A stretch of DNA of 64,000 nt. It comes from Agarophyton chilense (Eukaryota; Rhodophyta; Florideophyceae; Gracilariales; Gracilariaceae). The DNA is taken from assembly GCA_030374765.1 (NCBI GenBank), contig JARGXX010000086.1, forward strand, positions 124,001 to 188,000, written 5' to 3'. A program made the translations under genes and the position numbers. The notes under the pieces are model-generated. The model was not told the origin of the DNA and searched no databases. It was given only the letters and a program-made list of their open reading frames with translations. Each line of letters begins with the position of its first letter. Position 1 is the stretch's first letter. Positions 2,272 through 35,399 of the stretch are shown one piece after another.

Positions 2272-3590
2272 ATGGCGCACTCCGAAACCTCAAACAACGC
2301 GCAGTCATTTTCGACTGGCGCTATCTCCATATATTCTCCGATTGCTACGCCAGTGCTGAGCAGCGATGATCCGATTCAAGTGGCTCGTTTTGTTAAGAAA
2401 CTTGAGTGCTACGAGCTCGAAATTATTCCCAAAAAAGGTGAGATACCGTCGCTCAAAGTATTATCGTACACTACGCGCTTCGATCGATCTTTACTGCGAA
2501 GTCTCTTCTACATCGGAAAGTTTGATAGAATCGCCCCTGATGCAGCCTTCGATTCCGATATGACAAGCGACAACATTAGGTTGTTCGTCCAGTCGCTTGT
2601 CTCCCGCGTTGATTCGGTGATCACCGACCCGACGATCTTAGAGAAGGCCTTTAAAGGATTCTCTATGCCGACTCATATTGCTGATGCAGAAGCCTGCATC
2701 ACGCGCTACTGTTTCGACTTTTTTGAACGCCTCAAGAGCGTTGGTTGCGCTGATTTTTGAGAGAAGAACCCAAAGAAAGCCATCGATATCATCTTGCAGC
2801 GTCTGCAACCGGCAGCGCTGAAGCGCGAGATGCGCCGCCGCATCTCATATGATGACAGGCTCAAAAAGAATTTGAAAAAGTTCATAACCCTCATCCTTCG
2901 AGAAGCAGTCAACTGCCAAGTCTACGGCGTAGAGGGGAAGGATAGGAAGAAGAAACCGAATCTGGCGAAGACAGAAATTGGCATAGACCCCCCATATCGA
3001 ACCGATTGTGACAAAAGCGGAGCCAAACCGGGCATTCCTTCAAAAAACCCGCCCCTGTGCCTTTCGGAAGAGCATAAGAAGAATGGCATTCGCCATTACC
3101 TACGAAATTGCAACGAATGACCCAAGGGCGTAAAGGACAAGCTTTTCGAGCTGCATCGAGGCTCTAGCAAAGGTGGGGCCAGTCGAACCACCGACAAGCG
3201 ACAAGAAAGCCCCAAGAGCGTCTTCTTCAGCGCTACATTTGGCGAAAGGCATCGAGCTACGATCTGCGCTGATACGTGCTCGGATCACAATATTCTCGAC
3301 CGTCATATGCTCCTCGCCTTCAAAAAATCAGGTATCGAACACACTGTTGAAGACCTTGGTCGCACGCGAACGTTCGAAGTGGCTGCGAGCTTACCCGATG
3401 GCAATCCTGCGTCCCTAACTTGCAACCAAGTCGTCACCGTCGATACCGAACTTCATATTCGACATGGTTCCGCGCTCACTCTCCGCGGTGTTCGCTGGCT
3501 CGTTATCAACCAAGCTGTTGGAGATCCGCTCCTTGGTCGACCTTTTTTTGAGGCGATTGGTCTTTACACTCTCAAAATCTTGGCGGCTGC
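2272..3590 (+). pseudogene. Element A gag and protease-like segment (fossil)
   Basis: The gag-like part begins at the ATG at 2272 and has no close match that I recognise beyond a generic gypsy capsid layout. It is followed at about 3.2-3.6 kb by a retropepsin-like stretch with an LGRPFF tail resembling the flap/ILG end of aspartic proteases. Element B lies immediately downstream, so A's protease is separated from its RT by about 10.7 kb. The segment is a decayed fossil. Confidence 0.6.
3586..3590 (+). repeat. Target-site duplication of element B, left copy (GCTGC)
   Basis: GCTGC directly precedes the TGTAGTATCC start of B's left LTR and recurs directly after the TACTACA end of its right LTR. 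Confidence 0.85.
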
Positions 3591-4257
3591 TGTAGTATCC
3601 GCTCTAACGGAAAGAGCAGACACCTGCGACAGCGTTCGGACTGCCGATGGGTCGCTTGCGGCGAAGTAAAAGGGGTGGTAGAGCTACAAAACCAGCGAGC
3701 TGGAAGTGGGGTGTAAGGCCACTACTCGCCAGCGAGGGTGAACAGTGCAACTGTAAAACGTTGATGGGACGTAGGTACGAGACGGCTCGTGAAGTGGTTG
3801 GGGGCTGACTATCTATTATAGCTCGTCCGGATCTCCGGTTAAAGAATCCTAAGCGAGGAACAGAATAGTCATGATGCCCATGTTGTCTCCTTTACTTGGA
3901 GTCGGCGCTCACCTCTGGTGCACTATATACTGTGTGCCAGGGTGAGTGCCCAAATAAAAATATAAATAATACCCAGTGATCAGCCACTTAGCCAAAACAC
4001 TGTATGGGTATGGTCCCTAATGGACGTCTAGCTACAAAGGGTAGTAAAACCAACCACGTGGATCGCCACTACATGCGCCGTTGCAAGCCACTCCACTCGT
4101 TATACCACGTGTTCTACTAAGACATTCTGCTTCTAGGCATCCTACGCGGTGTGCCGTTTCATATCACAAGTTTGATGACATCACTCACTTATGAGTTCCA
4201 ACTGCGACTTCGCGAAAAAGCAACATATCGGATTCCCCGATATAGTAGAATACTACA
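3591..4257 (-). repeat. Element B left LTR (3' LTR)
   Basis: 667 bp, with TGTAGTA/TACTACA termini forming the short inverted ends. It contains an AT-rich box TATAAATA at 3961-3968 that faces the antisense ORF and is nearly palindromic, so it could act in either direction. Confidence 0.92.
3961..3968 (+). promoter_or_regulatory. TATA-like box in element B LTR
   Basis: TATAAATA on the plus strand about 315 bp before the antisense ORF start. The minus strand reads TATTTATA, so the same box could serve gag-pol transcription in the other LTR copy (13969-13976). This is a sequence match only; promoter activity is inferred. Confidence 0.35.
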
Positions 4258-4268
4258 TACCCCCCTCG
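4258..4268 (-). other. Polypurine tract of element B
   Basis: The plus strand reads TACCCCCCTCG just inside the left LTR, i.e. CGAGGGGGGTA on the element's sense strand. The identical tract stands before the right LTR of element D (55645-55655). Confidence 0.8.
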
Positions 4269-4281
4269 TTAAGCGCGAACC

Positions 4282-6108
4282 ATGGGGGACGCAAGAAGCG
4301 TTTATACGCAGTCGGACCGGTGTTCCGGGTACTCATCGTCATCACGAGTTCCTCACCGCCCGACCAACTCTTACAGTTCTCAACAGCATTCTGTTCCTCA
4401 CCGCTCTTCAGCTCGATCTCTCGCGATGGATCCGAACGCCGGGTCCAACCCGTTTCAGCCCTCCTCTGAGGATGTACCTTCTGGGGCTCCGTCCAACACT
4501 GCTGGTTCTGCGTCGCAGCCTACTGCTCAACTCGGTCCATACCGTTCGTTCCCCACACCGTCCACCGGATTCCGGTCGGTACCGTTATCTCAACCAACCG
4601 TGGCTCCGATGCCGAACGCGGCTTACGTCGCCTCTGTGGGTGTGATTCGAGCTCCTTCTCTTCGTGCTCAGCGGAGCTACCCGCACCCTGCGGATTTCTA
4701 TGGACGAGATCCTCTCGACAACGTTGAACTTTTCGCGCAAGCGCTCTGGTTTGATCCAGTTGCTATCCGCGATGACGCGTTGATACAACACTTTGTACAC
4801 AGTGGGTACTTCCCTGACGGTATTCCGGAACACGCGATTTATAGCGACGACTGGGCGAGCCATATTGCTTTGCCAGACAATGAGATTGCGCGATATTCAA
4901 CGGAAACCTTGTCCGAAGCCCGTACGCGTTTCACCAAGCTTATTTACCAGCGTCTTCACCGATTCATCGGTACGGTTCTCCTCCTGCAGGACTTGGAACT
5001 AGATACCTGGAAAGCCCGTACCAACGGTGAATGTTACTCGTATATCGAGACACTCGTTGAAGTCGATGTTGGCAGTTGGCGCGGTGTGCGCGGTGTGCGT
5101 GATGCAGCTCTCTGCTTTCAGCAACCTCTTCTCCGTGCGGAGTTCCGCTTCCTTCGAAAGCGTGACATTCCCTATTGGGATTATACCCATTGGGAACGTT
5201 GTACTCGATCACGTTTGGGCTATTTGGTGCCGTATCAAATGATCGAGATTGACCGCATCCGGCGGAACGCGCGCTTCGGGCGCTACGTCGGTATTCCGGA
5301 GCATTGGGCGGCGATCGAGAGTCCTCGTGGTTGCCCTGTGGAGCTCCCACCGGCGATCTCCTACATCGGGCCCGCGTTGGTTAATGACCCGTTCTCGGGA
5401 TATTGGACGATGGTTTATACCGAGTATATCGCCAAGATGGCCGTCTTCCTCCTGTGGGATGCTTATGGTACCTTTAGAGTTTGGTACATGTCGGCCACAG
5501 CGCGAAAGTATGCGAGAGAACTCGATCTTTCCCTTGTCCTGGGATCCCGTGCGAACCATGCCGACTTCCTCCATCTTGTGGATTTGATCGACAGTGTCGA
5601 TTAGTCTGGAGTGCCGGCTGATCAATCCGCTCGCGGAACCCGTGCAAGACACTACGACCATTCTCCTGGACGAACAGCAAGTGCTGGAGATTTCGTTTGG
5701 TACGACCCCTGGACGCGCCAGTTGATCACCTCCGATCAGGCTCGCTTTCTTCGGGAGAACCCGCGTGACATGCCACCGAACCAGCTTACTGGATACGTTT
5801 ACGATGCTACTCCATCCAAGAACGGAGAGGAACCGTATGAGGAAGCGCCGGGAGCTGAGGTTGAACTCGGTTACGAGGACGAGCCAGAGCTGGCAGGCGT
5901 AGCGACTTCCGTCGATCAATCCGCAGCGGCGGGAGTTGCTCAAGAATACTATCATGGGTTTACCCAACGACCGAGTGCAGTGCCGGTCGAAGATCCAGGC
6001 TTGGATCCGCTGAGGCAGTTCCTCTTAGATGCGGGCTTTCCCGTGGACCAAGTTGAGGGTGATCGCGCACAGCTTCTTGCGAACCTGCGTGCTCGCACGT
6101 CTCTTTGA
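4282..6108 (+). pseudogene. Element B antisense accessory ORF (aORF)
   Basis: A long reading region of about 600 codons on the strand opposite to gag-pol, starting just inside the 3' LTR at the ATG at 4282 and converging on the pol C terminus. The order is: a Ser/Pro-rich N-terminal 140 residues; a conserved core with PADFYGRDPLDN, RAEFRFLR, RSRLGYLVPYQMIEI, FGRYVGIPEHW, RGCPVELPPAISYIG and LLWDAYGTFRVWY; an AGDFVWYDPW block; an acidic linker; and a short C-terminal block LRQFLLDAG. Core and C-terminal motifs recur in element C at much lower identity, and the N-terminal half recurs almost unchanged in D. No signal peptide, membrane span or known enzymatic motif is visible, so an envelope role is not supported. 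The copy is treated as a fossil. Function unknown. Confidence 0.75.
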
Positions 6109-6217
6109 TCATCCTAGAAAAGACTCCTAGACAACACCCTTGCGGTGATATCTTGATACCAATAAACTCCGGTGACTTCCTGTTTTCAAGTTCCCTTCTT
6201 ATCTTCTAGTTTTCATC

Positions 6218-6303
6218 TCTTCTCGCTTCTCGAGTTCTTCAATCCTTCTTCTCTCACTTCTCGAGTTCTTCAATCCTTCTTCTCTCGCTTCTCGAGTTCT
6301 TCC
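6218..6303 (+). repeat. 31-bp tandem repeat, about 2.8 copies
   Basis: A pyrimidine-rich unit with core CTTCTCGAGTTCTTCAATCC starts at 6226, 6257 and 6288, a constant 31-bp period. It lies between the convergent aORF and pol of element B. Elements C and E have CT-rich stretches at the same place but not this repeat. Confidence 0.85.
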
Positions 6304-6341
6304 TAGGTGATAATCAGTAAATGTCCTGTGCTTGCGTGTTT

Positions 6342-9300
6342 TCACTTTTCTTCCACATGACTTCTTATATTCGTTTCACCTTTCGAGTTTTTACTACCTT
6401 GGTAGCCCATACTTAGAAATGGGATGTGCCCATGAGCCCGACTATCGAGGAGTCGATCTCCCTGGGGAGTGGTAATCGCATGCGTCGATGATACCGCACG
6501 AGTTGCGAACGGGGGATATGAGGTATAGGTTCCCACGTATCCGCTTCCGGAGGAAAACCGTACCAACGGACTCGATACAGTAATTCTCTGGTATCTTCAT
6601 GCTCGCCATGTTCACATATGCGATCCAGAGCATATTCCTAGGCGTTTCCCAATGCTTTAGCTGTTGGTGCGAGACTCCTGTTAACAGGTTTGAAATGCCT
6701 TAGGGCTGACCCAAGCGTCTCTGTGTTAGCAGTCTCCGCGTCGCTAAGCGTTTGCTCGTCGACTAACTGTCGTTCTGCCCGCAGGGGCAGTGTACTCATT
6801 CCTTGAGAACTTTTCTCAGATAAAGAGCTATCCTGTTTTCCAGGTTCCATAGAAGCGTACTTCTTGCTACTTCTCAATTCCATTCGTGGATGAACATCCT
6901 TCGGTTTATCCGATTCTGACAGCTGTTCGGTGGACGATGGTGCTTGCACCACGACAGGAGCCGATACCTCTTCTTCTTCTTGCCCACGAGGGATGGGAGC
7001 CTATATCGGCGGAACAGCGAGTGGAGCTTCACCTGACGGTTCAGCCTGAAGCGGAAAAGGCGCGTTTTCGCGTGCACTCGTTTCCAAGTCCTTGGGGCCA
7101 AATTCCAAAACATCTTTCCTGCTTTCAGGTTCCATTTCTGTACTTACGGGTGTGCGCGTGACACGGGGCGTATCTTGATACTTTGGAAGCTGTCCCTGAT
7201 TGGCGTACGCAACCGCCGGCGGTGGAAGATCAGTAGCTTTCTCCTCCGCTCGAGCCATTGGTGGCGGTTCACTCTCCCCACAGTCACTTGGGCTTTTGCC
7301 TTGACGTTCCGCCGCACTTGCCTTCTTAGTTCTACCAGATACCTGTACTTCCACTTGCAGGTCAGGCGCGGCTTCAACGCGATCGCGCTATACACGTTCA
7401 ACTTCGTCACCTGTCTTGATGACCATTGTGTCTTCATCAAGGTCCACCACTTTGAAGGGTCCAGCCGCTATCGGCAACAACTTATGACGAGATTATTCCT
7501 GTTTTTCCGGTCTTTCAACTCGCACGAAGACGTGACCTCCTACTCGGATTGCCGGATTTCCTCTTCGCCTTCTGGCGTCATAGTTTCGCTTATAGCGAGC
7601 TTGCGTCTTTGATAACTCCTTAGCGGCTTCTTCCGCTCTGGCCTTCAGGTCATTCCTCCATTTCAGATGGTACTTAGCCGGGGTCGGCGCGTCCAATTCT
7701 GTGTCGTCGTCGAGCGCAACCGGTAAAGCCGGAGGGTTACGTGAGAGCACGAGGTCGAACGGTGCCGTCTTTGTAGAGGTATGCACTTGCGTATTGTACG
7801 CGTAGCACAGAGTATCTGTAAACATGTCCCATTCTTTCGGGTGGTCCGCGATGTAGTGTCGTAATGCTGCTATCAGCGTGTGGTTGAAACGCTCCACCTG
7901 ACCGTTGCATTGCGGATGATAGGTCGTGGTAAACAAGTTTCGAATGCCCATAATGCGGCAAACATTCTGAAAGAACTTCGCAACGAATTGCTTCCCATTA
8001 TCTGATAACAGAAGTTCTGGTGGTTCGTACATAAATACCCAGTGTTTGATAAACGCCTGTGCGATTACGGTTGCGGTTATCCGCCTCAGCGGCACAGTCC
8101 GCACTAGCTTCGAGAAGCGGTCGGTGATTACAAATAGGAAGCGATAACCTTGCCTTGAGCGAATCAATTCCCCTAGGATGTCGATACTGACGTACTTTAA
8201 AGGCGCTTTCGCCTGGAAGAACGTCATCTGTTTCCGCTTCCTGTAAAGCTTCACGCGATTCTTCGCACATGTTGTACACAAACTCATTGTAGCATGGCAG
8301 CCCCTTGCCAAAGTAGGCCAGTAAAAATCTCTTCTTAGAGTCATGAACAACTTCGTTCCTCCTGGATGACCAGAAAATCTGCTGTAATGTGCCAGATGGA
8401 GTACTCGACTCTTCAAGACGTGTGGAATCACGATTTGATCATGCTTTTCGACATGTCTTAACAGTATTCCTCGTGAATAGAGTGGAAAGGGGAGCTCCTC
8501 CTCCCCGTTAAGACGAGAGCGTATCGACGCACAAAACTTATCGGCGTGTTGCTCATGGAGGAGCTCAGTGCACGAGATTCGCTCGAGTTGAACTGAAGGG
8601 TCAGTGTCTGCTAATGCAAGGAATGGGTCTGCATCCGAATAATCATCAAGGGTCTCTTGTTCCTCTTGTTCAAAAGATAGTGAATGGGTCTCCATGTAGA
8701 AGCAAGGTACCTCTTCATCGATTTTTCCTTGGGTTTCGCCCAGTGTTTTGAGTCGCGACAGCGCGTCAGCTTGGACATTGGCCAATCCCTTCTTATACTT
8801 CACTTCGAAATCGAATTCAGAAAGGCGCAAGCGCCATCGTGTGAGACGACCAGACGGGTCTGTAATGGACAGTAACCATCGTAGAGACGAATGATCCGCG
8901 TTTATGGTAAAACGTTCTCCTTGGAGATACGGTCGCAATGTGGTTAGAGCCCAAACGACTGCAAGGCATTCCTTTTCTGAAACTGAATACTTCTTCTCAG
9001 CTGCGTCCAGCGATCTTGACCAGTAACCAATGGGTTTGCGTTCACCATCAGGGTGTGTTTGAAAAAGGGCACACCCTACTTGGTACTCGCTAGAGTCAGT
9101 ATCCACTGAGTATGGCAGGTTGGGGATGGGCAGCGCCAAGACTGGGGCTGTAATAATCTTTGTCTTCAGCGTGTCGAACGCTTCCGCTTCAGCTTTTCTG
9201 AATTGTTCCAGATGTATTGGTTGTCCTTTACGCAGCTTTGCGTTGAGCGGTGCCGCTATATGCGAGTATCGCGGCACGAATCGTCGGTAGACGTTGCACA

Positions 9301-11191
9301 AGCCGAGGAAAGAACACAATTGCTTCTGTGTTGACGGAGGTTGTACATCGCGGAGAGCCGCTGTTTGTGCCTCTTGAATGGCAAGCTGTCCCGGTTTGAT
9401 CACGTATCCTAAGTCCCGGACGGTGCCAGCGAACCATTCGCATTTCTTGAACTTCAAGGTGATACCTGCGCTCTGTAGTGCTTTGAGGATCTCCTCGACA
9501 TGCCGTAAATGGCTTTCTACATCCCGGGAAAAGATGATCACATCGTCCAAATAGACTAAACAATTCTTCCACTTGTATGTTGAGAGCAAGATGTCCAGAC
9601 TACGCTGGAAAGTAGCCGGTGCATTCGTTAAGCCAAAGGGCATCCTTTTGAAACGGTAGAGACCGGCGTGACACGCAAATGCAGTTTTATCTTGGTCTTC
9701 TTCCGCTACAGGCACCTGCCAATAGCCAGAGTTGGCGTCCAACGTGGTGAACACGTTCGCTTCTCCTAAGCTGTCAATACATTCGTCCATTCGAGGCAAC
9801 GGGTATGTATCTAGAACTGCAACTGCTTTCAGTTTTCGATAATCGCTGCAGAATCGTAAAGAACCATCAGGTTTCGGAACCAGCACCACTGGTGAGGCCC
9901 AAGCAGAATGAGCTGCCTCGATTACTCCTTCTTCCAGCATTTTGCTGACATTCTCCTCCTCGATTTGGCGAGTTCGCGGTCCCGCTCTGTAGGGTGGTTG
10001 GGAGATGGGTCGTGACTCTGGGACCAAATCAATATGGTGTTCCGTAGCGGAGATCTCTCCTGGTTTTCCACTCCAAATGGATGTATACTTCTTCAGCATA
10101 GACCTGATCTTCGTTCTGTAGTGTTCCGACACATGTGCTAAGTCTAGCTCATCGACCAGGCTCTCTGGATCCTTTGCCGTTTGCAATTGATCTCCAGACG
10201 GAGTATGCAGTTCTTCGTCTGTGTCACCGACATGGGTTAATCTCAATACTTCTGCGGTAGAAATATGAGTAGGGACCACCACTGTGGGATGAGGCAAAGC
10301 TGTTGCGACGACCTGGTTCTTCGGTATATGATAATCGTTATCGGTGAAGTTACTCACTAGTATCCAAAAGGGGCTACCAGGATCAACCTGAGAAATGCCG
10401 TTAGCGACTAGCAATCCCCGGGATTAGTACATCCGAGTATTCGATTGAATTACCACGAGTCCGTGTCGTTCTGTTCTTACTTGAACCCAAGTTTGGGTTT
10501 GCGCCTTCAGCATGGCACTCTTCGCTACTCGAATCCTCGGCGAGACACGTCCTCGGGATTTCCCGTATTCCATAGATGGTGGAAGTGGAGGTGCTTCGGG
10601 GCAACGACGCATTGGCTTGCGAACAATTGGTACCATTGATCCATCATCTAGTTCCACTAGTTTTCTTCGCGGGCGAATGGCTTCGACAAACTTGTTGCAA
10701 TAATCACATCCCAGTACCACTGGTGCAGCTAACGTCTTACAGACCATGAAGTCGACTAGGACTACAAAGCGTCCCAAACGCACCACGAGTCGAACTGTTC
10801 CCAGTGTCTTCACAGCATTTTTGTTGGCATCCCAGATGTCCGGTAAAGGACCGTATCGAATACGTTCTAAGTCAGCAGGAGCGAGCTCCGATTCCCGTAT
10901 AAAGTTTGGACCAGCACCTGCGTCCAGGATAGTCAATCGACGAGATAACAGATTCCTGTCAGAGCCGATGTCGGCATAGACCTTATAGTTTCTTTTATAT
11001 ACTACCATGAGGTAACTTTCCCGTTTTGACGGGCAAGTATAACGTCTCCAAGGACGATGTAACTCACAGTCAAACTGTACTCGCTTTCCGTCCGGCGGAA
11101 TGATTCCGTACGGCGGAAATTTCTGAGGCCTCAAGAGAATCTTGGGCTTCCAAGCGCGGGAGCAGGGATGCGAGCTCTCCCTGGTCAGCAC
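6342..11191 (-). pseudogene. Element B pol region (protease, RT, RNase H, integrase, C-terminal extension)
   Basis: Read from high to low coordinates: retropepsin near 10.9 kb; RT with FTTLDANSGYWQVPV and the catalytic box LVYLDDVIIFS near 9.55 kb; RNase H with YSVDTDSSEYQVG and DALSRL; integrase zinc finger (H-x-H and CTTC), then the DDE core with SIDILGEL, LLSDNGKQF and YHPQCNGQVERFN. A proline-rich extension and a chromodomain-like tail follow toward 6.4 kb, by homology with element C. This places B in the chromovirus branch of Ty3/gypsy. The region is a fossil with a few breaks. Confidence 0.88.
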
Positions 11192-11232
11192 TACGGTATC
11201 GACTAGTACCGACCCCCTAGGGGCTCCCTCAC

Positions 11233-13467
11233 TTAGTTTTCCGGTTGCACCGGCTTATTCGCCTCAAAGGCGCCACTTCCTACCGGGGTTCCGGGTTGTA
11301 ACACTTCAGCATTCTGAGCAACCGGCTTGTCCGTCCGGCGCATTGGTGTCTGAGAAAACCAACTTTTGGCTTTCCAATACATGCCCGCCGGTAAGCGGCT
11401 CCTTTCTTCTTCTGAGAGTGCCTCATTATTCGTCATGATACGACTCAGATCCTTTGCAGGAAGCGTGCATTCTGCACTCAAATGGAGTTTTCCATAACAT
11501 GAATAACAAATCAAACCGTCACGACGGTTGGTCAACATAGGTTGTGAACGGTATGCCGTGCGAGTATCCACCCATCCGGGTTTCCCGTTCTGAAAACCTC
11601 CTTGTGGTGGCACCGTGTAGGGACGGTAAATAGGGCGACGGCACTCCATGGACATTAGGGCTTCCTCGTCCTGAGACTCCGAGTTTGGGAGATACACTGT
11701 AGGTACAGAAGAGTCCGTATATTCCATTAAATGCACCGCCTCCTCATGCGAGTCACTCCCTTTGGGTGCCAACGACGAATCTCGTGAGTCAACTGGAGAT
11801 TCCAGATGTAGCAGTTTGCCGCGCTGATTTACTCTGGCGGAGATCTTCTCCTTACCCATTGAGGTTCCAAAAGCCACTGAACGACGGGGGCTACCACGCG
11901 CTCTGGCCGCGTCTCCTTCAGCTTTCGCAAACTGAACTAACTCCCAAAAGGAGACTCTTCCATGCTTCTCTCGATATCGAGCTACCAACGACTTGATGCT
12001 CGGGTCCAGCCCGTCGATGTACAAGGTAATCTTGTCCTCCGTCGAGTGGAATTTTCCACAGCGGACTGAAGCTTTCTTAAGCCTTGAGCTGTACTCAGCA
12101 TCGCCCTCCTCAGACTTTTGGGTCAAATTCCTTAGGTCCAGGATCGCCTGACGTATCGCGTTTGATGTCGCGTAACTGCGCAGCAAATACTGCACCGCCT
12201 CTGGCCATGAGGTAACGCCGCCTTAACCGGCTGTCAATGATCCGCAGACGGAAAGATATTGCTCTAAAGCAGAACCCTTAAGGAAGTGTGGTAAAGACAC
12301 AAATGCCTGTGGTTCACTCATCTCTAGAGTTTCTGCTTCGGCAACGAATCGAGTGAGAAACTCGATAACGAGGATGGGGGTTTTCCCATCAAATGTTAAA
12401 TCATTAGGGCGATCTTCAATCGTTTGATGTGATCCTTCACCTTCGCGGTCTCACGTCCTGAGCGCTTCTTGCTGTTAACCTTCAGACGGTAGTACCTGTA
12501 ATTCAGGACCTTCCGATAAAGCGGATTCGTGCACGGGAGCACCTTCAATCCTTTGTAAGGTGAGCCTTTTTTTCTCATTAACTACGAAGACGTGTTCTTC
12601 TTCCGAGATCGGGACCTTCGATGACCATCATCACTGTCGCCGTCATCTGACGTATCTGAATCATCAGAATCATCAGTACTGGAACTGAAGCCCTCCGTAC
12701 TTGACGATTCATCACTCGAATCACGTGCGGACTTCCGCTTCTTACGTCGTGAATTCGACTTCTTCGAACGAGCTTCCTTCAAAGGAGCTCCTTTCTCTTC
12801 CAGCACGACTGGTTTAGCAGCAGTCTGCGCATGAACTGCCGCCTCCAGGCGTTCTAAACGAGGGTTAACTCGATTGACGACTTCCTCTACATCCACGGTT
12901 ATGCCGGGTAGCGCATCGGGCGTATTCCCGTACCTCTCCATTAGATGGTTCAAATCCTCACGTAGTGTTTTCACTGATGAAGAGACCTGCTTCCCATCGT
13001 CTTGACGAACGAGTGCTTGATGTGCACTGCGTAATTGTTCGACATCAGCGATAAGAGCAGGGATCTGCGATTCCAACGCAACCATGCGCACACGCGAAGC
13101 GCTTGACTCAGACTTGAGACGACGCACTTCCCTGCGCAAATCATCCTCTTCTTGAGGTCCGAAGACTTCAGGGTCAACTACGGCTTCTGTGGTGGCGTGA
13201 CTGCCGCTACCACAGGGGCGGTACATCCGAGAGATCTCGTTCATCATTCACCGAGCGTGAGCGCGACATCGCTTGACGGTACAGCCGCTCTCCGGCTTCA
13301 ACAAATGAGGCGAGCCTCGGTTTCGGGGGTGGTCCCGCAGGACCGGGGCGACCAGTACTCGACTGGCTTCGGGTCTTCGTCATCCTAGACCAAACCTGAG
13401 TCCAGGTGCGAACCAAATGGTGTCTTCGACTTCTCGACCACGTGTTCAACCACGATGAATTCCGCAA
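11233..13467 (-). pseudogene. Element B gag region
   Basis: Capsid/nucleocapsid region. The N-terminal part has a long heptad-like stretch (LRREVRRLKSESSASRVRMV) followed by a Ser/Asp-rich linker with basic patches. The central part resembles gypsy capsid (YLLRSYATSNAIRQAILDL, RLKKASVRCG). The nucleocapsid has one CCHC knuckle, CYSCYGKLHLSAEC. The same layout occurs in elements C and D. Fossil with a few breaks. Confidence 0.82.
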
Positions 13468-13578
13468 TTGCCGGAGGTGGTTCGATAAACAATAACTGTA
13501 GTGATTCCACTTCTTACAAGTATCGATATCGATTCCACGTTCCAGGAACGAATTGTTCAGTGCAGCTGACCACAGTGG

Positions 13579-13596
13579 TTCTAAGTCGGGAGACCA
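13579..13596 (-). other. Putative primer-binding site of element B
   Basis: The plus strand reads TTCTAAGTCGGGAGACCA two bases before the right LTR. The identical 18-mer flanks the 5' LTR of C (28876-28893) and, inverted, of D (49451-49468). It ends in CCA in tRNA sense, but a T-loop is not at its usual distance. Confidence 0.6.
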
Positions 13597-13598
13597 CT

Positions 13599-14265
13599 TG
13601 TAGTATCCGCTCTAACGGAGAGAGCAGACACCTGCGACAGTGTTGGGACTGCCGATGGGTCGCTTGCGGCGAAAGAAAAGGGGTGGTAAAGCTACAACAC
13701 CAGCGAGCTGGAAGTGGGGTGTAAGGCCACTACTCTCCAGCGAGGGTGAACAGTGCAACTGTAAAACGTTGATGGAACGTAGGTACGAGACGGCTCGTGA
13801 AGTGGTTGGGGGCTGACTATCTATTATAGCTCGTCCGGATCTCCGGTTAAGGAATCCTATGCGAGGAACAGAATAGTCATGATGCCCATGTGGTCTCCTT
13901 TACTTGGAGTCGGCGCTCACCTCTGGTGCACTATCTACTGTGTGCCAGGGTGAGTGCCCGAATAAATATATAAATAATACCCAGTGGTCAGTCACTTAGC
14001 CAAACCACAGTATGGGTATGGTCCCTGATGGACGTCTAGCTACAAAGGGTAGTAAAACCTGCCACGTGGATCGCGACTACATGCGCCGTTGCAAGCCAGT
14101 CCACTCGTGATACCACGTGTTCCACTAATGTACTATGCCTCCTGGCATCCTACGCGGTGTGCCGTTTCATATCACAAGTTTGATGACATCACTCACTTAT
14201 GAGTTCCAACTGCGACTTCGCGTAAAATCATCCTATCGGATTCCCCCACATAGTAGAATACTACA
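13599..14265 (-). repeat. Element B right LTR (5' LTR)
   Basis: 667 bp, same termini as the left copy, about 96% similar by eye over the first 300 bp. Followed directly by the GCTGC duplication at 14266-14270. Confidence 0.92.
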
Positions 14266-14270
14266 GCTGC
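14266..14270 (+). repeat. Target-site duplication of element B, right copy (GCTGC)
   Basis: Matches 3586-3590 exactly; element A sequence resumes from here. Confidence 0.85.
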
Positions 14271-18659: not shown

Positions 18660-19547
18660 TGTATGACAACGCTTGGAGCAAAGACATCACGAAGATGTTC
18701 GGGATCTTCCTCTCTTGAGAGACACGCCTCAGTCCGAGGAGACGCGTCCCAGCAGAGCACAGAAACAGAGCCACTCTGGGAAGGCACGACGGAGTCGGGT
18801 GTAAGACCGAGGCAAATCTGGCGGGATATACTTAGAGTGTTTAGGTGAGCACGGCACAGTCCGGGGTGTGACCAATCCTAGGCGGAGCGGTATCACGGCG
18901 ATTGTCGGGAAAAGAGCAAGGAAACACTCGTATGAGGTGGACGAGCGGGGTGAGTGAGGCGGCCACTCACGAGAGCCAAAAAGGAGAACAAGAGGAAAAC
19001 GGGGGCGAAACCCTATACAGGGGCGAGACTACGACAATTGTCGGCGATTAAATATGAACCCACGGTGGTGGTAGCACTCTGGTCGACAGAGGGGTGGATG
19101 AACTAACGTGCGACGGGCGCTCACGCAGTATGCGGTGAAGACGCGCCGAAGGCGAAGGGTTCAGAGCGAAGACTCCCTCCTTGGGATCTCCCAAGAGGGT
19201 GTCTACTGGGGAGCAGTGCTCGACCTCCTAAGTAGTGTTGCGCGCGGCCCCTGACAGTGGGCGCGCGCCCGAAAAAGAGGCACTAAATAGCAATAGCATA
19301 GCTAAATAAATACTGAAAATTACTAAATGATACTAACCATAAGGTAGAATCCGGGCCACGTGTGGCACGCCTCGCACTCGAGCGTCGGCATCCGTGCAGT
19401 CCACGTGTTCCACCAGTGTGCACTTCCGGTCCTAACCGGCTGTCAGCACGCAATAGCGGTATAGCTTGTCATAGACCAAGCTAGTCCTCAAGCGAGCGAA
19501 ATCTCTAAGTCCTGGGAAGAAGCCCCCTTGAAGGGCATTGCACTTCA
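18660..19547 (-). repeat. Element C left LTR (3' LTR)
   Basis: Matches 28897-29699 nearly base for base through the central part. The inner end CACTTCA is set by the adjoining pyrimidine tract TATCCCCCTCCTTAG, the complement of a polypurine tract. Confidence 0.82.
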
Positions 19548-19582: not shown

Positions 19583-21451
19583 ATGGTGGGGAGGCAACGG
19601 TCCAACCGGAATAAAAGCGAGCCATGTAACGCGTCCAGCGACCACTCGACTGTCGAAGGCAGAGCTGCACAACCGAACGACAAACGCACCAACGCGGTAA
19701 CCACTCCTCGAACTTCGAGCGCTCTCCCGCATCGTACACCAACCTCTAGCGATTGCATCCCGATACCTCGGCGACCAGTACTCCCGATGAACGGTGGTAA
19801 CAATCCCCGCCGGGGTTACTTCTCCGGTTTCCATTCGGCTCCCCCTCCGAGGGGGAGTGCCTCGTCAACCGCGCCGAGCTAATCCCGGGGTCCCGTTGAA
19901 GCTTCAACCCACATCACTCCTGCGGAGGACACCTGGCCCACTTACGACGAACTCGTCGGGTGAAACCCACGTCAACATGCGGCGATTCTCCGGAGAGCTC
20001 CGTGGTTCCATCCGACAGTGGTCTTCGACGCAGAACTCGTGGAGTCGTATGCTGATGGCAAGGCGCGTCTCCCGGGCGAGCTGCCAGCTTTGATCACCAC
20101 TTCGTGGGATTGGCGAAGCCGTGTGGCGGTTCCCATTCACGCGATTCTGCAGCGGAGGCGCGAGTCGGCGGAAGAGGCAAATTGTACCTTCGTCCGCATC
20201 GGCTACTCACGGATCAACCGGGCAAACTTTCAATACCCCATCCCCGACGAGTTCTGCTTCGACCTACGGATGTACCGGACGCAGGTTGAGATCGGCTATT
20301 GGGACCGCCTTGCGGCGTTGGAAACTTACGCATGGCGCGGTCAACCGCGAGCGCGTCAAGAAGCGATCTGCTGGGTCCGTCCGATCATTCGTGCCGAGTT
20401 TCGTCACCTTCGTCGTGAGTCCCGATATCGGTGGTTACAGAACTTCATCCGCGAGAAGCGTCGGGGAAGATCCCGCTTTGGGTTCCTCGTCCCTTATCAG
20501 AACACGGAGATAAACCAGATTAGTCCCTTCTATCAGTTTGGGCGATATGTTCCCCTGCCTGGGTGGTGGTCCTCCGTCGAGGTGTGCCGGGGATGTTACG
20601 TGGAGTTGCCTCCAGTCGTCTCCTATCTGGGCTCGTACCTCATCGAGGATCTGCACTCCAGCTTATGGTCCGTGGTCCTAACCGAATGGGCAGTCCGCGC
20701 CGCGGCGTACATGTTGTGGGAAGCCTACGACCAGTATCGACTGTGGTATCTTCCTCCCCGTTTGCGTGGTTACATCCGGCAGCTGGACCTTCAAGTCCCT
20801 CTTGGAGGTGTCAATAACGCTGGTGAAGCTCAGGAGCTCATCGACATCATTAGGCGTGTCGACTGGGCTGTCGTGTCTGTCCGGCAGAGCGGCCGTGGTC
20901 AAGGAGCCGGTGGGGCTGATCGGTCTCCGGGGCATCGCACGCCGTTGGCAGGAGATTTCATCTTCTTTAACCCATGGGAGCAGCAAGAGATCTCCGAGGC
21001 GGAGGCATCGGCACTCCGGATGGCTCCGCGAGGCATGCCAAACGGGCACCCCGTGGGGTTTGTCAACTCGGATGACTTCTACTACGCCTATGGCGGTGAT
21101 GATCTCCCGGAGGAGGAGGGCGAATACCACGGCGAGGAGGTCATGGAAAACGTGGGAGACCCCGCTGGGGCCAATACTACGGCGCAGCCGGGGCAGGGAG
21201 CTACTCACGCAAGTGCAGTCGTCGATACAGTGGCGGCGGCGTTGCCGGACGAACCGGAAGTTATCGAGGTTCCCATACGCCCAGAGGCGGTCGTGATCTC
21301 CCAGTTCCTTCGGGATGTTGGACTGAACGCGCAAGCGGCGAGCGGCGACATCGGTACGATGAGAGACGCCTTCGTGGCACGCCTGACCGGCGGGAGTAAC
21401 TCCGCTAGCGATTTGGCTGGCGCGCACGGCAATCCGGGTTCTTCCAACTAA
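19583..21451 (+). pseudogene. Element C antisense accessory ORF (aORF)
   Basis: Plus-strand region opposite to gag-pol. The well-preserved part from 20018 encodes about 477 residues. Blocks shared with the B copy, in the same order: RAEFRHLRR; RSRFGFLVPYQNTEINQI; FGRYVPLPGWW; RGCYVELPPVVSYLG; YMLWEAYDQYRLWYL; AGDFIFFNPW; an acidic Gly/Glu-rich linker; and SQFLRDVG near the C terminus. The N-terminal 130 residues are Ser/Pro/Arg-rich, as in B, and less well preserved. Elsewhere the two copies are strongly diverged, so conservation of these blocks suggests protein-level constraint. No known domain, signal peptide or membrane span is seen. Treated as a fossil copy. Confidence 0.75.
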
Positions 21452-21663
21452 TCCCTTGTGACCTTGGTTATGATATCCCGCTGTGCGGTAGTGTGTGCAG
21501 CAACTTCGAAAATAGTAAACTGCTTCCGTCTATGACGTATTTGTTTTCTTCCTTCTTTTCCACTTCTTCTGAGTGTCCTTCTCCAGGTCTTCTGTGCATC
21601 TTCTCCTTCTTCCAAGGGTCCTTTTCCAGATCTTCTGTTCCTTTATCCCCATCGGGTGTCTTC

Positions 21664-24600
21664 TTATCCCATTTGGGCTCGGTCTATGGTAGCCGGCAAA
21701 GCCGTGACAGTACGACGATGATACTGTACCACCTTTGACCGAGGTAGGTGCTCTATCGGTTCGTCTGAATCCCATTCGGGGCCGTACCCGTACCAACGGA
21801 CCAAGTATTGGAGATACCCTTTTGGATGGTAGGAGTGCTCCAGAATGCGTCCGACCACGAACTCTTGTCGGTACACTTCCCGGCCATCCCGTATGACGGT
21901 GTCGCTATTTTTGGGTGGTACCCGTCCTGAGCCTGGGGGTGCCGAAGTGATCACGCGTTGGGCGGCTTCGCTCCGGTCGGACTGTGTAGCGCGCAAGGCA
22001 GTCCTCGGCTGAGTGGAATGTCGACCCGACTTCGGCGGTTCATCTACCCCAAGTGCCTGGTTTGCTTCGGCGTTTCTCACTCCGGTTGGAGGGCCCACAC
22101 CGGCGGTTAACCCGGGTGGTCGTTCCGCTAATCGGCGTGGTGAAGCTCGCTTCGGCGGTGAGATTCGCTGGGGCGGTGGCGCATTGTCGCACCTCTCCGT
22201 ACCACGGCGAGGTTCCGTGTAGTCACGTGAGGGTTCCAATGGCTGGCTGTCCGGCGTCGGCGCCGTGGATGTATCCGCCTCCCTGTGCGGGGTACTTGGC
22301 GGTGCGTCGTCCACTCGTACTGTATCAGGCTGCGGTGCGTCGAGCGCATTTGCATTCCGTGTTGCACGTGTGGTCACACCTCGGCGAGTGTTGGTGGCGT
22401 TATCCGCAGCTGCGTTCTGAAGCTTGAATAGCGACTGCTTCGAGTCGTGCAGGACGTCGGTATCAGGCACCCTTGATGGGCGAAGAATGACACGCGACGG
22501 TGCGGCGTTTCCAGCGACGGTATCGACCGGATTACGACGGCTGTCGGGCGCCTCCCCCTCCTTAGACGATGCACCGGGGTTGGTGTCCGTCGGGTGGACT
22601 GGGGAGGAGCGACGGATGCGCGACACGATTCCTTGCGGGTTGGGCGCCGCGGGTAGCGGGAGGTCAGACAAACCCCGAGATGGGTGTGGTAAGGCGTAGG
22701 GACGCGGGTGGACCTGGGGTAAGGGGGTCGAGGAATCCGTTTCAACGGGAGCAGTAACACCAGTAGGTTGGGAGGATAACGGCGGAGGAGCCGATACCAC
22801 GCGATCGCGGGAGATGCGTTCCTGATTACCAGCGAGGTCAACAACGACAGTGTTGGAAGCCACCGAAATAACCCGAAAGAGGCCGTCGGCAACGGGTGAC
22901 AGCTTGCGGCGTGTCTCCTTCTCTGGGTTCCAATTCTGCTTGCGGATGAATACATAACCGTCGGGGGCGAGACGTGGGGGCGAGCGAGGGGCTTTGATAT
23001 CAAAGTCACGCTTGTAAGCGGCCTGGGCTCGGCCCATTGAACGCCGTGCGGCGGGAACGAGCTTCGTGAGCCAAGTTTTCCACGCTTCGCAGTAAGCAGT
23101 CGGTGACGGAAAGGTATCCAGCGTGGGCTGTGGTTCCAGTGCCACGGGCGGTGGGGTACGGGACAGTACCAGCTCGAAGGGTATTAATCCAGTTGTCCTG
23201 TGCACCTGCGTATTGTACGCAAAGGTGAGCGCATCAGTGAACAAGTCCCAATCTTTGGGGTGGTCTGCAACGTATGCAAGGAGTGTCGCAAGTAATGTCC
23301 AGTTGAACCGTTCGGCCTGCTCATTAGTTTGGGGATGGTAATTGGTCGTGAACAGGTTCTTAATGTCCAAGATGCGACATACATCCTCGAAGAAACGAGA
23401 GGCGAACTGTCTCCCGTTATCGGAGAGGAGGTTGACCGGTGGACCGTAGATGGAGACCCAGTGTAGGACGATGGCTTGAGCCACGCTCATAGCGGAGATC
23501 TTCCGTAACGGTACGGTCCGGACCAGCTTTGAGAAGCGATCCGTGATTACGAGTAAGAACTTGTAATTCCGCTTAGTGGTAAGGAAGGGACCGAGTATAT
23601 CGATGGCCACAAACTCCAATGGAGCGCGAGCTGGAAACAGCTTCAACTTCGTCGCATGACGCCGGAGTTTGACACGGTTCCGAGCGCAATCGGTACAAAA
23701 CCACAGTGTTGCGTACCAGTTCACTGCCATGGCAGGCCAGTAGAAGTTACGGCGTAGGGTGAGGTAAAGTTTCCGTCCCCCGACGTGGTCACTCAGTTTG
23801 GAGTAGTGCGACATCGGCAATACTCTCGACTGGAGGTTATGTGGTACCATGATTTGTGGGTGCGATCCGACGGACCGTACAAGGTATCCGGCGTCATTCA
23901 TCTGAAAGGGGAGATTAAATCCTCCATTGAGTTGAGCGCGGACCTTCGCGCAGACCGGGTCAGCGAATTGCTCCCGTATCATCTCCTCTGGAGTAATAGG
24001 CACGAAGTTCCCTGGTAAGGGTTTCTCGGAATCTTCCGAGAGAAGAAAGTCGTCCAATTCGGAACCGGAATCTGAACAGTCCGTGTCTCGTTCCTCGTCC
24101 TCGATGGTAGCGTCGTCGCCATTCACTGCAAAGCAGGGTATTTCATCATCTTTGACGGGTAGTGCTCCGCCAGTAGTGACCAGACGGGAGAGAGCATCGG
24201 CTTGGGTGTTGCACGATCCTTTTCGGTACTGCACGTCAAAGTCAAATTCCGCTAGACGGAGACGCCAACGCATCAAGCGGCCTGAAGGCTCCGAGAGGGA
24301 GAGTAGCCATCGAAGCGATGCGTGGTCCGTGAAAACTGTGAAAGGATTACCCATGAGATAGGGGCGCAACGTTTGTAATTCCCACACTACTGCAAGGCAT
24401 TCCTTCTCCGAGACGGATTAATTCTTTTCGTGGACGTTTAGCGATCGGGACCAGTACCCTACGGGGCGTCTTTCCCCATTGGGTGCAGTTTGAAACAGTG
24501 CAGAACCTACTTGGTGGTCGCTGGCGCCCGTATCTACGGTGAAGGGCCTTCCAGGCTTGGGCAACGAGAGGATCGGGGCGGAGACGACAGAATCCTTAAG

Positions 24601-26613
24601 AGAGTTGAAAGATTCCGTTTGAACGGGGGTTAAGGGGTCCAGTTTTCGTGGTTGTCCTTTCCGCAAAAGCGCATTTAACGGTGCAGCCTTGTCCGCAAAG
24701 TGCGGGATGAATCGTCGGTAGACGTTTGCGAGTCCCAGAAAGGAACGAAGCTCGGTTTGCGTCCGCGGTTCTTTAGCCTCTTTGAGTGACTTAACACGAG
24801 TCTTTTCGATTGCAACACGTCCTGGACGGATAACATGGCCGAGATACTTCACAGTGTCCGTGAAGAAGTCAAATTTCTTCAACTTAAGTGTGACACCCGC
24901 ATCTCGAAGCGTGGTCATGATATCCCTCACATGAGTGAGATGTTTGTCCAGATTATCTGAGAAGACGATTATGTCATCCAGGTAGACCAGGCAGGTACGC
25001 CATTTGAAGCGGGCCAATAGGATGTCAATGGCTCGCTGGAAAATGGCGGGGGCGTTGGTAAGACCAAAAGGCATCCGTTTGAAACGGTAGAGACCGGAGT
25101 GACACGCAAATGTGGTTTTATCATGGTCTTGCTTCCTTACCGGAACTTGCCAGTATCCCCAATTGGCGTCCAGGGATTTAAAGACGGTGGCGGTGCCTAG
25201 CGAGTCAATGTACTCGTCCATTCTTGGGATTGGATACACCTCATTGGCGGTGACGGCATTCAAGCGACGGTAGTCGACGCAAAACCTCCAGGAACCATCC
25301 TGCTTTAAAGCCAGTACTACTGGAGAAGCCCACGGCGACTGAGCCGGTTCAATGACTCCTGCTCGAAGCACTTTATCCACTTGTGCCTTTTCCTCCGCGC
25401 GTGCGGCGGGTCCGGCACGGTATGGGGGCTGAGAGATGGGTCGGGTGTCCGGTAGCAAATCAATCCGGTGTTCCGTAGTGGCAATCTCACCAAGGGAGCC
25501 GTACCACATAGTGGTGAAGTCCCTTAAAAGTTCTCGCAATCGATGGCGGTATGACTCCGGGACGTGGCTGAGATCCAGGTCCTCGAGTTCTTGGACTGGA
25601 TCGGGGCGGTCCCCACTCGTTGAAACGGGCCGCGTCCCTGATTTTACAGGTTGAACCCCGGGTCCCGGCGATGAAATGGGTTCCGGGCTGTCCCCCTCCT
25701 TAGAGTGAACGAGACCGAGAACGTCAGCTGCGGTCAGCTGTGTCGGCACCATAACGATGGGGTGCGGCATGACGGACCCTATCACTTGGTTCTTCACCAG
25801 ATACTGGGGTACAGTCCCTAGATTGGCGATCAGCACGTGAAACGGTTGGTTTGGCTCTACATGGACGATTCCATTCGCAATTGCGAGGCTGTGCCTTTCA
25901 TACAGTGACGACAATGGTTGCAAGACCCGGAGTCCGTGTTGTCGGGAGGTTACTTTCACCATCATTTGGGACTCAGGCGGGACGCACAACGACGCTGTGA
26001 CGCGGAGCTTATTAGATTCACGGTTATCCGGTCGAGGTTCCTGTGCTGCCGGTAGCGGGACATGCTTCTTCGTGGCACGCCTAAGCGGACGACAAACGAT
26101 CGGAATGGACGATCCATCCTCCATCTCGACACGCCGTTGGCGGGGGAAGATCGCTTCGACGAAGCGGTCGCAAAAGTCGCAACCCAAGATGACTGGGGCG
26201 GCTAGTCTCCGACACACGACGAAGTCGAGTTTCACCACGCGAGCGCCAACGCGGACTACCAGTTCTATGAACCCCACCGTATCCAACGCTTTGTTGTTCG
26301 CGTAAGCGACCTCCGGGACGTCGTCGTGGCGGATCTTAGACTGCAAAGCAGGCGGTAACACTTCCTCCATGACAAAGTTCGGAACGGCACCAGTGTCTAA
26401 GATGGTAAGGTGTCGCACTATAAACTGGGGTGAAAGGCCAAGGTCAGCGTAGACGTTATAGTTTCTCTTGGCCATCACCAAAACTCTATCCGGGAACCGG
26501 TTATGGGAAATATGTTTCCACGGACGACGCAGAACACTAAAGTGTTCCAAGTTCACTTCATTAACGGCCTCTTTCCTTGAAAGGATTTTGACCGGGGAGC
26601 GAGGCTTGGACAC
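21664..26613 (-). pseudogene. Element C pol region with C-terminal chromodomain
   Basis: In minus-strand order: retropepsin LTILDTGAVPNF near 26.4 kb; RT with FKSLDANWGYWQVPV and LVYLDDIIVFS near 25.0 kb; RNase H with FTVDTGASDHQVG and ADALSRL; integrase with VAIDILGPF, LLSDNGRQF and YHPQTNEQAERFN; a long Pro/Arg-rich linker; and a chromodomain near 21.7-21.9 kb (EFVVGRILEHSYHPKGYLQY, LVRWYGYGPEWDSDEP). The chromodomain defines it as a chromovirus. Fossil. Confidence 0.9.
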
Positions 26614-28731
26614 CTCGGGCGCAGTCTACCTCGACTCTGAGGGCGCCCCTTCTTGAGAGGAGACTCCCACATTTAGTTTTTCTGGGCCTGCTCCGCCGGA
26701 GGCGGCTGCTCAGGACGTTGAGCAGGCAAGGGCGGGGCTTCAGGTCCAGAAGGTACCGCAGAAGCGGTGGGGTGACCGACCACGTCGGTGACACGGGATT
26801 CAGTTGCAGGTACGACCCGAGCTCGGGGAAGCGACACGTGACGTGGAACATCCGTACGAGCACGGATATACGATGCAATCGGGACAGCTGCTTTGTCCTC
26901 CGGGGATAGGGCTCGTAATTGACTACGACTTGTGCCCATTCTCGGAGAGAAAACACACATTGTGGAGAAGTATGGCCTGGTTTGTAGCAGAGATGACAAA
27001 TCAGACCAGAAGCCGGCGTTGGGTGGCGAGGCTCGGCGAACTTCACCGCGGGGCGGGTATCTCTCAAACCAGGACGCGAAAAGCGGACATTACCATTCTC
27101 GTGTGGGACGCGTGGCGCACGAACGCGACCATTATCCGCAAATAGTAGCGAGCCATCCTCAATCACGTATTGTGATTTGTCCAAGGTTGAGGGTAACTCC
27201 GTTGTTGGGATGGAATGAACGTCGCTATGGGCTAGCTGCACGTTATCATAATCCCTTCGAGAGGCCTGTTCGTCGATCATCGAAGCTGACGGGGTACCGT
27301 GTTGTAGCACCAACGCTTTTGCGGACCTAACCCTGGATCCAGGAGTGCGTGCGCGCAGGACTTCACCTTCTGCGCGAGCGAACTGCACTAGTTCCAAATA
27401 CGTGGCTTTAGGTCTATCTTCTCGACGTCGAGCAACAAGAGTCCGGATCGCCGGGTCCAAACCATCGACAAACATGGTGCAACGCTCTTCAGCGGGGTAA
27501 ACATTGCCACAGCGGTGGAAGGCCTTGTTAAGGCGCGACGAATAATCGGTTTCCGACTCGCCTGGCCGTTGGCGAGTGTCCCGCAAGGTGCGTATAGCCT
27601 GCTGAAGGCGGAATCAGTAGCATACGACCTCAAAAGGTACTGAAGTGCTTCGGGCCAGCATGTTACCCCTCCTTCGGAAGCGCGTGATGAACCTCTGACA
27701 GAGTGATACTGGTCTTCTGCAAGGCGACGTAAGAAGTACGGTAAGGCAATGTAGGCCTGTCCCTCGTTCATTCCAAGGATGTCAGCTTCCGCGACAAAGC
27801 GTGCCAAGAAGACCAACACCAATATTGGGTCTTCTCCAGAAAACAACTGGTTTCGTAGTGAGAGCTGCATTCGCTTAATGCAGTCCTTCACTCTTCCCGT
27901 ACCACGGGGTGTACGATCCAAAGAGGAGTCCTCCAAACGGTAGTACCGGTATGATAAGAGCTTCTTAAAGAGCGAATTGGTCGGTTTCAGCTCCTTCAAA
28001 CCTGTGTGCTTCCTTCCCTTCGTGCGGGCGCGGATCACACCATGGGTGGCTGTTGACCGCTTAGAGCGTGAGGAACGCTCACGGCGAGCTACTTCCACCT
28101 ATGAATCGGAAGAGTCGGACTCCGAGGATGAGGAATCCGACGGTTCGGGATCCGTGTTTCTTCGCTTCTTTCGAGCCTGGCGGTTCTCTTCCTTTCTTCC
28201 CTTGTGGGATAATGCAACCGGCTCGGCCGGATCATCCCCCGACATTAGGGTTTGTCCCAACGTCTCGAGACGGCTTCGAACGCGCGAGAACTTGTCCGCG
28301 ACGTCCTTGACAAAGGCCGAGGATCCACCAAGGGATTCTAGAATCGAGTTCACATCCGCACGGAGGACACGGAGGTCCTCAGAAAAATCCTGCGTAGCAG
28401 TGTCAGTTACCTTCTTGCGAAGGGAATCGAACTCCTCTGCAAGGATGACTTGAGCTTCCCGCATAGAGCGGAGTTGTTTTTCCACAGCTGCAAAGCTGGG
28501 ATGGAGAGTGACGTCCCTAGCAGCGGAGAGCATCTGGGCGGCGGCAGACGCCGGTCCTGCTCCACTTGCTGGGGGTGTCAAATCAGAGACAGGAGGTCTT
28601 GAGGTCCTTCCACCTGGCACGCCAGTCGATCTACCGGTATGAGACCGTGGACGGACCGAGATACGGGATGGATGCGATGGTTCCGGTGCACCAATTTGAC
28701 TCCTCGTCCTCGAACGGTCTTTGGACGACAT
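26561..28731 (-). pseudogene. Element C gag region
   Basis: Starts with a basic Ser/Arg/Pro-rich segment (MSSKDRSRTRSQIG), then a helical stretch, a Ser/Glu/Asp-rich tract, capsid-like sequence (YLLRSYATDSAF, FHRCGNVYPAEER) and one CCHC knuckle CHLCYKPGHTSPQC. Same order as in B and D. Fossil. Confidence 0.8.
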
Positions 28732-28875
28732 GAGATCAGAATCCGTTACACGTGAGTATCCAAACCCGATCGGCTAGTGGGGCCAAGAAGCTTCCTCAAA
28801 GAGGGCAACTGAGATCTACCTCAATTTGTGAGTCCTCTTTCCGCTTAATCGTGACTGAGTGTGCCCGACTCATTT

Positions 28876-28893
28876 TTCTAAGTCGGGAGACCA
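28876..28893 (-). other. Putative primer-binding site of element C
   Basis: TTCTAAGTCGGGAGACCA on the plus strand, three bases before the 5' LTR. Identical to the sites of B and D although the LTRs themselves differ. Confidence 0.6.
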
Positions 28894-28896
28894 GTT

Positions 28897-29699
28897 TGTA
28901 GGACAACGCTTGGAGCGGAGACACCACGAAGATGTTCGGGATCTTCCTCTCTTGAGAGACGCACCTCAGGCGGAGGAGACGCGTCTCAGCGGAGCACAGA
29001 AACAGAGCCACTCTGGAAAGGCACGACGGAGTCGGGTGTAAGACCGAGGCCGATCCGGCGGGATATACTTAGAGTGTTTAGGTGAGCACGGCACAGTCCG
29101 GGGTGTGACCAATCCTAGGCGGAGCGGTATCACGGCGATTGTCGGGAAAAGAGCAAGGAAACACTCGTATGAGGCAGGCGAGCGGGGTGAGTGAGGTGGC
29201 CACTCACGAGAGCCAAAAAGGAGAACAAGAGGAAAACGGGGGCGAAACCCTATACAGGGGCGAGACTACGACAATTGTCGGCGATTAAATATGAACCCAC
29301 GGTGGTGGTAGCACTCTGGTCGACAGAGGGGTGGATAAACTAAAGTGCGACGGGCGCTCACGCAGTATGCGGTGAAGACGCGCCGAAGGCGAAGAGTTCA
29401 GAGCCAAGACTCCCTACTTGGGATCTCCCAAGAGGGTGTTTACTGGGGAGCAGTGCTCAACCTCCTAAGTAGTGTGGCGCGCGGCCCCTGACAGTGGGCG
29501 CGCGCCCGAAAAAGAGACACTAAATAGCAATAGCGTAGCTAAATAAATACTGAAAATTACTAAATGATACTAACCATAAGGTAGAATCCGGGCCACGTGT
29601 GGCACGCCTCGCACTCGAGCGTCGGCATCCGTGCAGTCCACGTGTTCCACCAGTGTGCACTTCCGGTCCTAACCCGCCGTCGAAGGGCATTGTCCTTCA
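28897..29699 (-). repeat. Element C right LTR (5' LTR)
   Basis: Begins TGTAGGACAACG. The far end is set at CCTTCA by comparison with the left LTR and by the start of an unrelated direct repeat at 29702. Confidence 0.75.
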
Positions 29700-33976: not shown

Positions 33977-34065
33977 CAGGCGATGGGAGAGATTTGCGAG
34001 GTTGTAGGGCGACGGAGGTCGGTGGCGTGGGCGAGCTCAACTCGACAAGAGAGAGTGAAAGGCGG

Positions 34066-35333: not shown

Positions 35334-35399
<66 letters not shown>

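Follow-up and report, generated by a model that had tools for sequence, protein, structure and literature searches.

Does the long open reading frame (ORF) that lies antisense to gag-pol beside the 3′ long terminal repeat (LTR) of a red-algal retrotransposon encode a protein, and if so, of what kind? The question is raised by element B, a chromodomain Ty3/gypsy retrotransposon (3591–14265, minus strand) with an LTR pair and a 5-bp duplication, in a stretch of 64,000 nucleotides from Agarophyton chilense (contig JARGXX010000086.1, positions 124,001 to 188,000), which was analysed whole and is referred to below as the window; all coordinates are counted from its first letter. Judged by its sequence, the antisense frame (aORF) is a protein-coding gene and not a chance ORF, and comparison between elements shows a protein that purifying selection has preserved in at least five divergent families (A, B, C, D and F). 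We are probably dealing with a true accessory gene that belongs to one chromovirus lineage of red algae and whose product may be a nuclear regulator or anti-silencing factor, or else a partner of the pre-integration complex.

Extent of the antisense gene

The frame runs over 4273–6108 on the plus strand and converges on gag-pol, which is encoded on the other strand. It is open over 4273–5601 and 5605–6105, and the sole interruption of the aORF in the window copy is a TAG at 5602–5604, which leaves pieces of 443 and 167 codons. The preliminary description of this locus, made without database searches, had reported an antisense frame of about 600 codons converging on pol. Strand, span and convergence are as it described, but the frame is not a single ORF in this copy. 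The start needs correction on two counts. It had been placed at 4282 and 24 bp inside the LTR, whereas the inner edge of the LTR is at 4257, which puts ATG 4282 outside the LTR, 24 bp towards the interior of the element. Moreover, the conserved start is ATG 4426, since an ATG occupies the corresponding site in the C and D copies that were read (L059, L067), the ATG that D has close to site 4282 falls out of frame, and variants among the B copies over 4282–4425 fall on codon positions 1/2/3 as 43/41/30, with no third-position excess. ATG 4426 is present in 21 of 24 B copies and ATG 4282 in 19. The antisense gene is accordingly placed at 4426–6108 (plus strand, ~560 codons), and the in-frame extension ahead of it (4282–4425, plus strand) is probably a 5′ leader.

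Lying antisense to gag-pol in the interval from pol to the 3′ LTR, this ~560-codon gene is predicted to have an antisense transcript of its own. A possible polyadenylation signal of the putative transcript, AATAAA, is located at 6161–6166 (plus strand), starting 53 nt past the stop, and is found in all 22 B copies that hold the segment (24 distinct copies were examined). In the one C copy checked (L059), AATAAA occurs ~34 nt past the aORF stop.

Selection and distribution across element families

Ratios of nonsynonymous to synonymous substitution rates (dN/dS) were computed between families with the NG86 method on copies that are naturally open (three of B, two of C, one of D and four of A). 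The three pairs of B with L059, a C copy, gave 0.098–0.165, the three with L062, also C, 0.083–0.142, and the three B–D pairs 0.119–0.154. For the aORF of family F (L076), compared over the C-terminal part, two A copies yielded 0.149 and 0.123, and B yielded 0.298. As a yardstick, the integrase of B and C has a dN/dS of 0.198 over 408 codons. The preliminary description had named dN/dS near 1 across families as one of two outcomes that would refute it; the measurable between-family values are 0.08–0.30. The open frame itself tells the same way. On the aligned DNA of B–C, B–D, B–A and C–D, the aORF frame alone is stop-free and the other five contain 7–31 stops per sequence, the copies in this comparison having been chosen as open in the aORF frame. 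In four of the five other frames the ratio of nonsynonymous to synonymous differences per site (pN/pS) exceeds 1; the fifth, which is on the minus strand and shares its third positions with the aORF, shows a pN/pS of 0.50–0.71 but 20–31 stops. A chance ORF held open by base composition would fit a window copy that is broken by a stop and a local GC content of 0.53–0.56, yet the stops in the other frames and the measurable ratios well below 1 leave this explanation virtually no probability.

Variation within families looks mostly like neutral decay. In A, variants common to at least three copies fall on third positions in 48 of 91 cases, singletons hardly favour them (244 of 687), and at the C-terminus of A pol they are not favoured either among variants in at least three copies (46 of 131). 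B singletons show little excess (309 of 839). For variants in at least two B copies, codon positions 1/2/3 hold 39/33/54 over 4426–5600 and 34/27/22 over 5601–6108. The evidence for selection, as far as the sequences go, thus comes from the between-family comparison and from A, whereas B on its own offers little or none.

The aORF is nevertheless no peculiarity of the window. In a search of the genome (79.8 Mb, 135 contigs), 105 of 1608 candidates were scored with the B aORF and 86 of 1932 with the A aORF, and all those scored match, so that at least 105 and at least 86 homologues, respectively, speak against the second refuting outcome, the lack of an aORF in other copies of the lineage. Together with the between-family dN/dS, these numerous homologues support the earlier claim of a genuine accessory protein. 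Few copies are intact: 3 of 24 distinct B copies are free of gaps and stops, as are 11 of 30 A copies over 19964–21448, and the intact fraction genome-wide is probably lower, because the copies examined were among the best-scoring. Decay of this extent would also suit a regulatory RNA, that is, an antisense transcript that forms double-stranded RNA with the genomic transcript, a mode of action considered for antisense promoters of other LTRs, and in which the ORF is incidental. The layout is convergent, most fetched B copies have stops or gaps, and antisense non-coding transcripts are reported from other elements (PMC7264820). Against purifying selection at the amino-acid level between families and a single stop-free frame, however, such an RNA is hard to hold as the sole explanation, and we consider it very improbable.

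The association of the gene with chromodomain elements is regular in orientation. Among the matches listed (204 aORF places), 29 of the 150 chromodomain matches scored have an aORF no more than 3 kb away. In each of these 29 pairs it is situated downstream, on the opposite strand in 28 and on the same strand in the remaining one. The other 121 chromodomain matches are not countable as lacking an aORF, the aORF places being those among the matches listed. As a control within the genome, 2 kb downstream was read for two chromodomain elements outside the 29 pairs. One, C128 (L076), carries the fifth aORF family (F), with one in-frame stop, next to its chromodomain. The other, C113 (L075), shows none, and the aORF therefore appears to be a trait of a lineage and not general to chromodomain elements. 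On L075 (1–2000), past the best-scoring chromodomain of the genome, we observed a sense ORF of 206 residues followed by a minus-strand frame that is pol-like by eye. The pol pieces of the C copy are oriented against the aORF, as is the C-terminal integrase piece of the D copy. Other pol pieces farther along L072 have the reverse orientation and are taken for a distinct element inserted there.

If the gene has been inherited with its element, its divergence should follow that of pol. The identities of the aORF and of the integrase C-terminus are 54.6 and 61.5% for B–D, 50.1 and 59.3% for B–C, and 33.2 and 45.4% for B–A, so that the aORF drops in step with integrase, as expected for inheritance with the element. 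Homology searches, in which the best 7994 candidates were scored in rounds two and three, returned 26 proteins, in A. chilense, Gracilariopsis chorda and ‘ena’/‘lgn’ entries, and the third round added none. Residues 1–363 of a protein catalogued by NCBI under A. chilense agree at 100% with the genome analysed, which fits A. chilense, or a very close relative, as the host. These data bear on the idea that the aORF is a passenger that was recently taken up from the host or from another transposon. It is unusual for a gene of an element to run antisense, and LTR elements are known to capture genes (PMC7264820). Capture is nonetheless improbable, given an antisense position beside pol in at least five families, a divergence that parallels integrase in the three pairs measured, and homologues in Agarophyton, Gracilariopsis and further entries, among which the search did not tell host genes from element copies.

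Several points weigh against the reading of the frame as an accessory gene of the lineage. The between-family ratios are rough, because dS is near or at saturation (2.3–4.9 in the B–C and B–D aORF comparisons). Saturation makes the aORF dN/dS not computable for B–A, C–A, D–A, C–D, C–F and D–F, affects the N-terminal part of the A–F comparison too, and extends to the integrase yardstick for B–D and B–A. B variants common to at least three copies fall on third positions in 18 of 58 cases, which is no excess, and most of the present B copies therefore seem to have decayed neutrally since they inserted. Downstream of at least one chromodomain element, C113, the 2 kb read are without an aORF. Finally, canonical AATAAA is missing past the stop in A (21452–21660) and in D (~190 nt read).

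Element B and its neighbours

Element B has LTRs of 667 bp, the 3′ LTR at 3591–4257 (minus strand, TG..CA) and the 5′ LTR at 13599–14265 (minus strand), which are 94.0% identical, and is flanked by the target-site duplication GCTGC at 3586–3590 and 14266–14270. The 3′ LTR is adjoined by a polypurine tract at 4258–4267 (minus strand; GAGGGGGGTA in element sense), and similar tracts border the LTR of A and those of the C and D copies that were read. On the minus strand follow gag (11236–12222, PF03732) and pol (7496–11254), in which reverse transcriptase (RT), RNase H, H2C2 and rve integrase are recognized by Pfam over 7496–10423; the frame of 276 residues at 10427–11254 in the pol region has no Pfam match. 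A C-terminal piece of pol (6416–6637, minus strand), on which the aORF converges, is 49% identical to A pol residues 852–917 and corresponds to the end of A pol that bears the chromodomain (PF00385, A pol residues 853–901). The features of a chromovirus are thus present as Gag, RT, RNase H and integrase in B and as the chromodomain in A, both by Pfam, together with the TG..CA LTRs and 5-bp duplication of B. For protease, Pfam gives a weak match in A alone (E-value 0.02, below the cut-off).

Element A, on the minus strand, has its 3′ LTR at 18660–19547 and its 5′ LTR at 28897–29699, the latter short of ~85 bp present in the 3′ LTR. Its pol, with RT, RNase H, integrase and chromodomain by Pfam, occupies 21664–26625 (minus strand). 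The A aORF, taken provisionally from the first ATG past the LTR (19583–21451, plus strand), is 34.9% identical to the B aORF over 301 residues; it has two in-frame stops before 19964 and is open over 19964–21448. Element E (48783–56321, plus strand) belongs to the B family, with ~95% identity, and is without the part equivalent to ~4983–8120. Its aORF (54918–55640, minus strand) is truncated and 90.7% identical to the B aORF over 236 residues. Three elements in the window, A, B and E, therefore have an aORF at the equivalent antisense place. A and E have no clear target-site duplication by eye. A fourth, degenerate chromovirus pol (56501–61703, minus strand; ~41% identity to B pol over 419 residues) adjoins the E insertion, and no aORF homologue of its own was found within the window.

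Some further sequence features were observed. Directly after the 5′ LTR, A, B and E have TGGTCTCCCGACTTAG in common (13541–13598, 28838–28896 and 49449–49470), which is likely their primer binding site and which we take to be unlike the usual initiator-methionine type. Between the aORF stop and the end of pol lies a CTTCTTCT-rich pyrimidine spacer (6192–6302 and 21540–21660), purine-rich in element sense, and such a spacer is seen after the aORF stop in the C and D copies too. The GC content is 0.64–0.75 over 34001–37000, compared with 0.35–0.62 in the remaining 1-kb windows.

The protein and its possible role

What could the protein do? The preliminary description offered packaging, host interaction or silencing escape as guesses. 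It also recognized no homologue, which holds for strong matches in curated families and among the sequences of solved structures, but not for sequence relatives, which exist in A. chilense and G. chorda. The aORF pieces of the window have no Pfam match at an E-value of 0.1, the homologues no strong one (best full-length E-value 0.029), three proteins scanned against NCBIfam no match at 0.05, and the aORF proteins no match among PDB sequences. Below the cut-off, Ish1 (PF10281) is matched by three of six C-terminal pieces (best 18.6 bits against a curated cut-off of 26.6, E-value 0.0024) and by one whole protein (P0006) with 13.5 bits, and short pieces of the core stretch resemble E3_binding (E-value 0.0074). 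We note these sub-threshold resemblances only as a lead; the aORF is not assigned to the Ish1-like nuclear proteins, its scores lying under the curated cut-off. Two AlphaFold models are mainly helical, with a predicted local distance difference test score (pLDDT) of 59.5 and 63.1. The first, weak model retrieved nothing of note from BFVD or by VIA-align, and the second, also weak, nothing from Foldseek-PDB or by VIA-align. Over the 392 residues before the TAG, the maximal 19-residue hydropathy is 0.94, so that this part contains no membrane-like stretch (the last 167 residues lie outside the scoring). An envelope-like gene was rejected on this ground and because of the antisense orientation.

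The arrangement is familiar from elsewhere. The aORF-3R genes of flowering plants (maize Grande gene23, rice RIRE2, Silene Retand) are described as antisense and located between pol and the 3′ LTR, are present in most copies of their elements and are suspected of an accessory role (PMC7264820, PMC11963269). The red-algal aORF is like them in its antisense position and in the interval between pol and 3′ LTR, which it occupies in A, B and E of the window, in the C and D copies read, in F and in the 28 adjacent pairs, and differs from them in its host. Retand, moreover, is a non-chromovirus, whose antisense proteins mostly have Transposase_28 (PF04195) (PMC11963269). This domain was not found in the aORF proteins scanned, and the best match in the genome scores 20.2 bits (cut-off 26.2). 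The red-algal protein is, by sequence, distinct from the Transposase_28 type, and its likeness to Grande, RIRE2 and the fungal brtn is one of layout, not of protein comparison. The latter is an additional antisense gene in the LTR retrotransposon Boty/BcGypsy1 of Botrytis cinerea (PMC8365987, PMC7264820). HBZ of the retrovirus HTLV-1, a 3′-end antisense gene with a promoter in the 3′ LTR (PMC11963269, PMC7264820), is likewise comparable in layout alone. Long reverse extra ORFs downstream of pol are classed as eORF-3′R in the plant elements of REXdb (PMC6317226); the aORF shares their orientation and place and is one homologous protein across at least five families. The terms ‘red algae’ and ‘Rhodophyta’ are absent from the main text of that survey. 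Red algae are stated to harbour chromoviruses, and the part of the abstract that concerns them mentions no antisense gene (PMC3605345); among titles of the open-licence PMC literature, none concerning a red-algal aORF gene was found. In its layout, the aORF groups with the plant aORF-3R genes (Grande, RIRE2, Retand) and with the Boty gene brtn.

In Grande, the antisense protein is reported to be nuclear and its gene to be transcribed from a promoter upstream of it (reviewed in PMC7264820), and it is mainly from this protein that we infer a nuclear regulatory role. The aORF product is probably soluble, nuclear and either regulatory or integration-assisting. It would be a mostly helical protein working in the nucleus in trans, this part of the proposal being less certain, and its role would most likely be that of an element regulator, an anti-silencing factor or a pre-integration-complex partner, in line with proposals made for the antisense genes of Grande and Retand. 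Two points count against this assignment: the nuclear role draws on analogy and on sub-cut-off Pfam matches of short pieces, and the fold models are of low confidence, too weak for the assignment of a fold.

Alternatively, the product might be no regulator but a component of the particle or of the pre-integration complex, in effect a second structural protein. A rate of evolution like that of integrase, the maintained linkage to pol and conserved core blocks would agree with this. A separate antisense transcript, needed if the protein is expressed, would however uncouple its dosage from that of gag, and no gag or nucleocapsid family is matched. We see a structural component as a minority possibility, whose odds overlap with those of the accessory gene proposed above. 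Bolder still, and in our view unlikely, would be a lineage-defining antisense gene with an undescribed fold that encodes a dedicated anti-silencing or chromatin factor, invented independently outside flowering plants, fungi and retroviruses.

Overall, the antisense slot beside the 3′ LTR would seem to be useful time and again, as the same layout is reported from flowering plants, a fungus and HTLV. A. chilense has a compact genome of 80 Mb and many copies of the element gene, a single protein with a measurable selection signal can be traced there through at least five families, and the use of an antisense accessory gene to its element thereby becomes testable.
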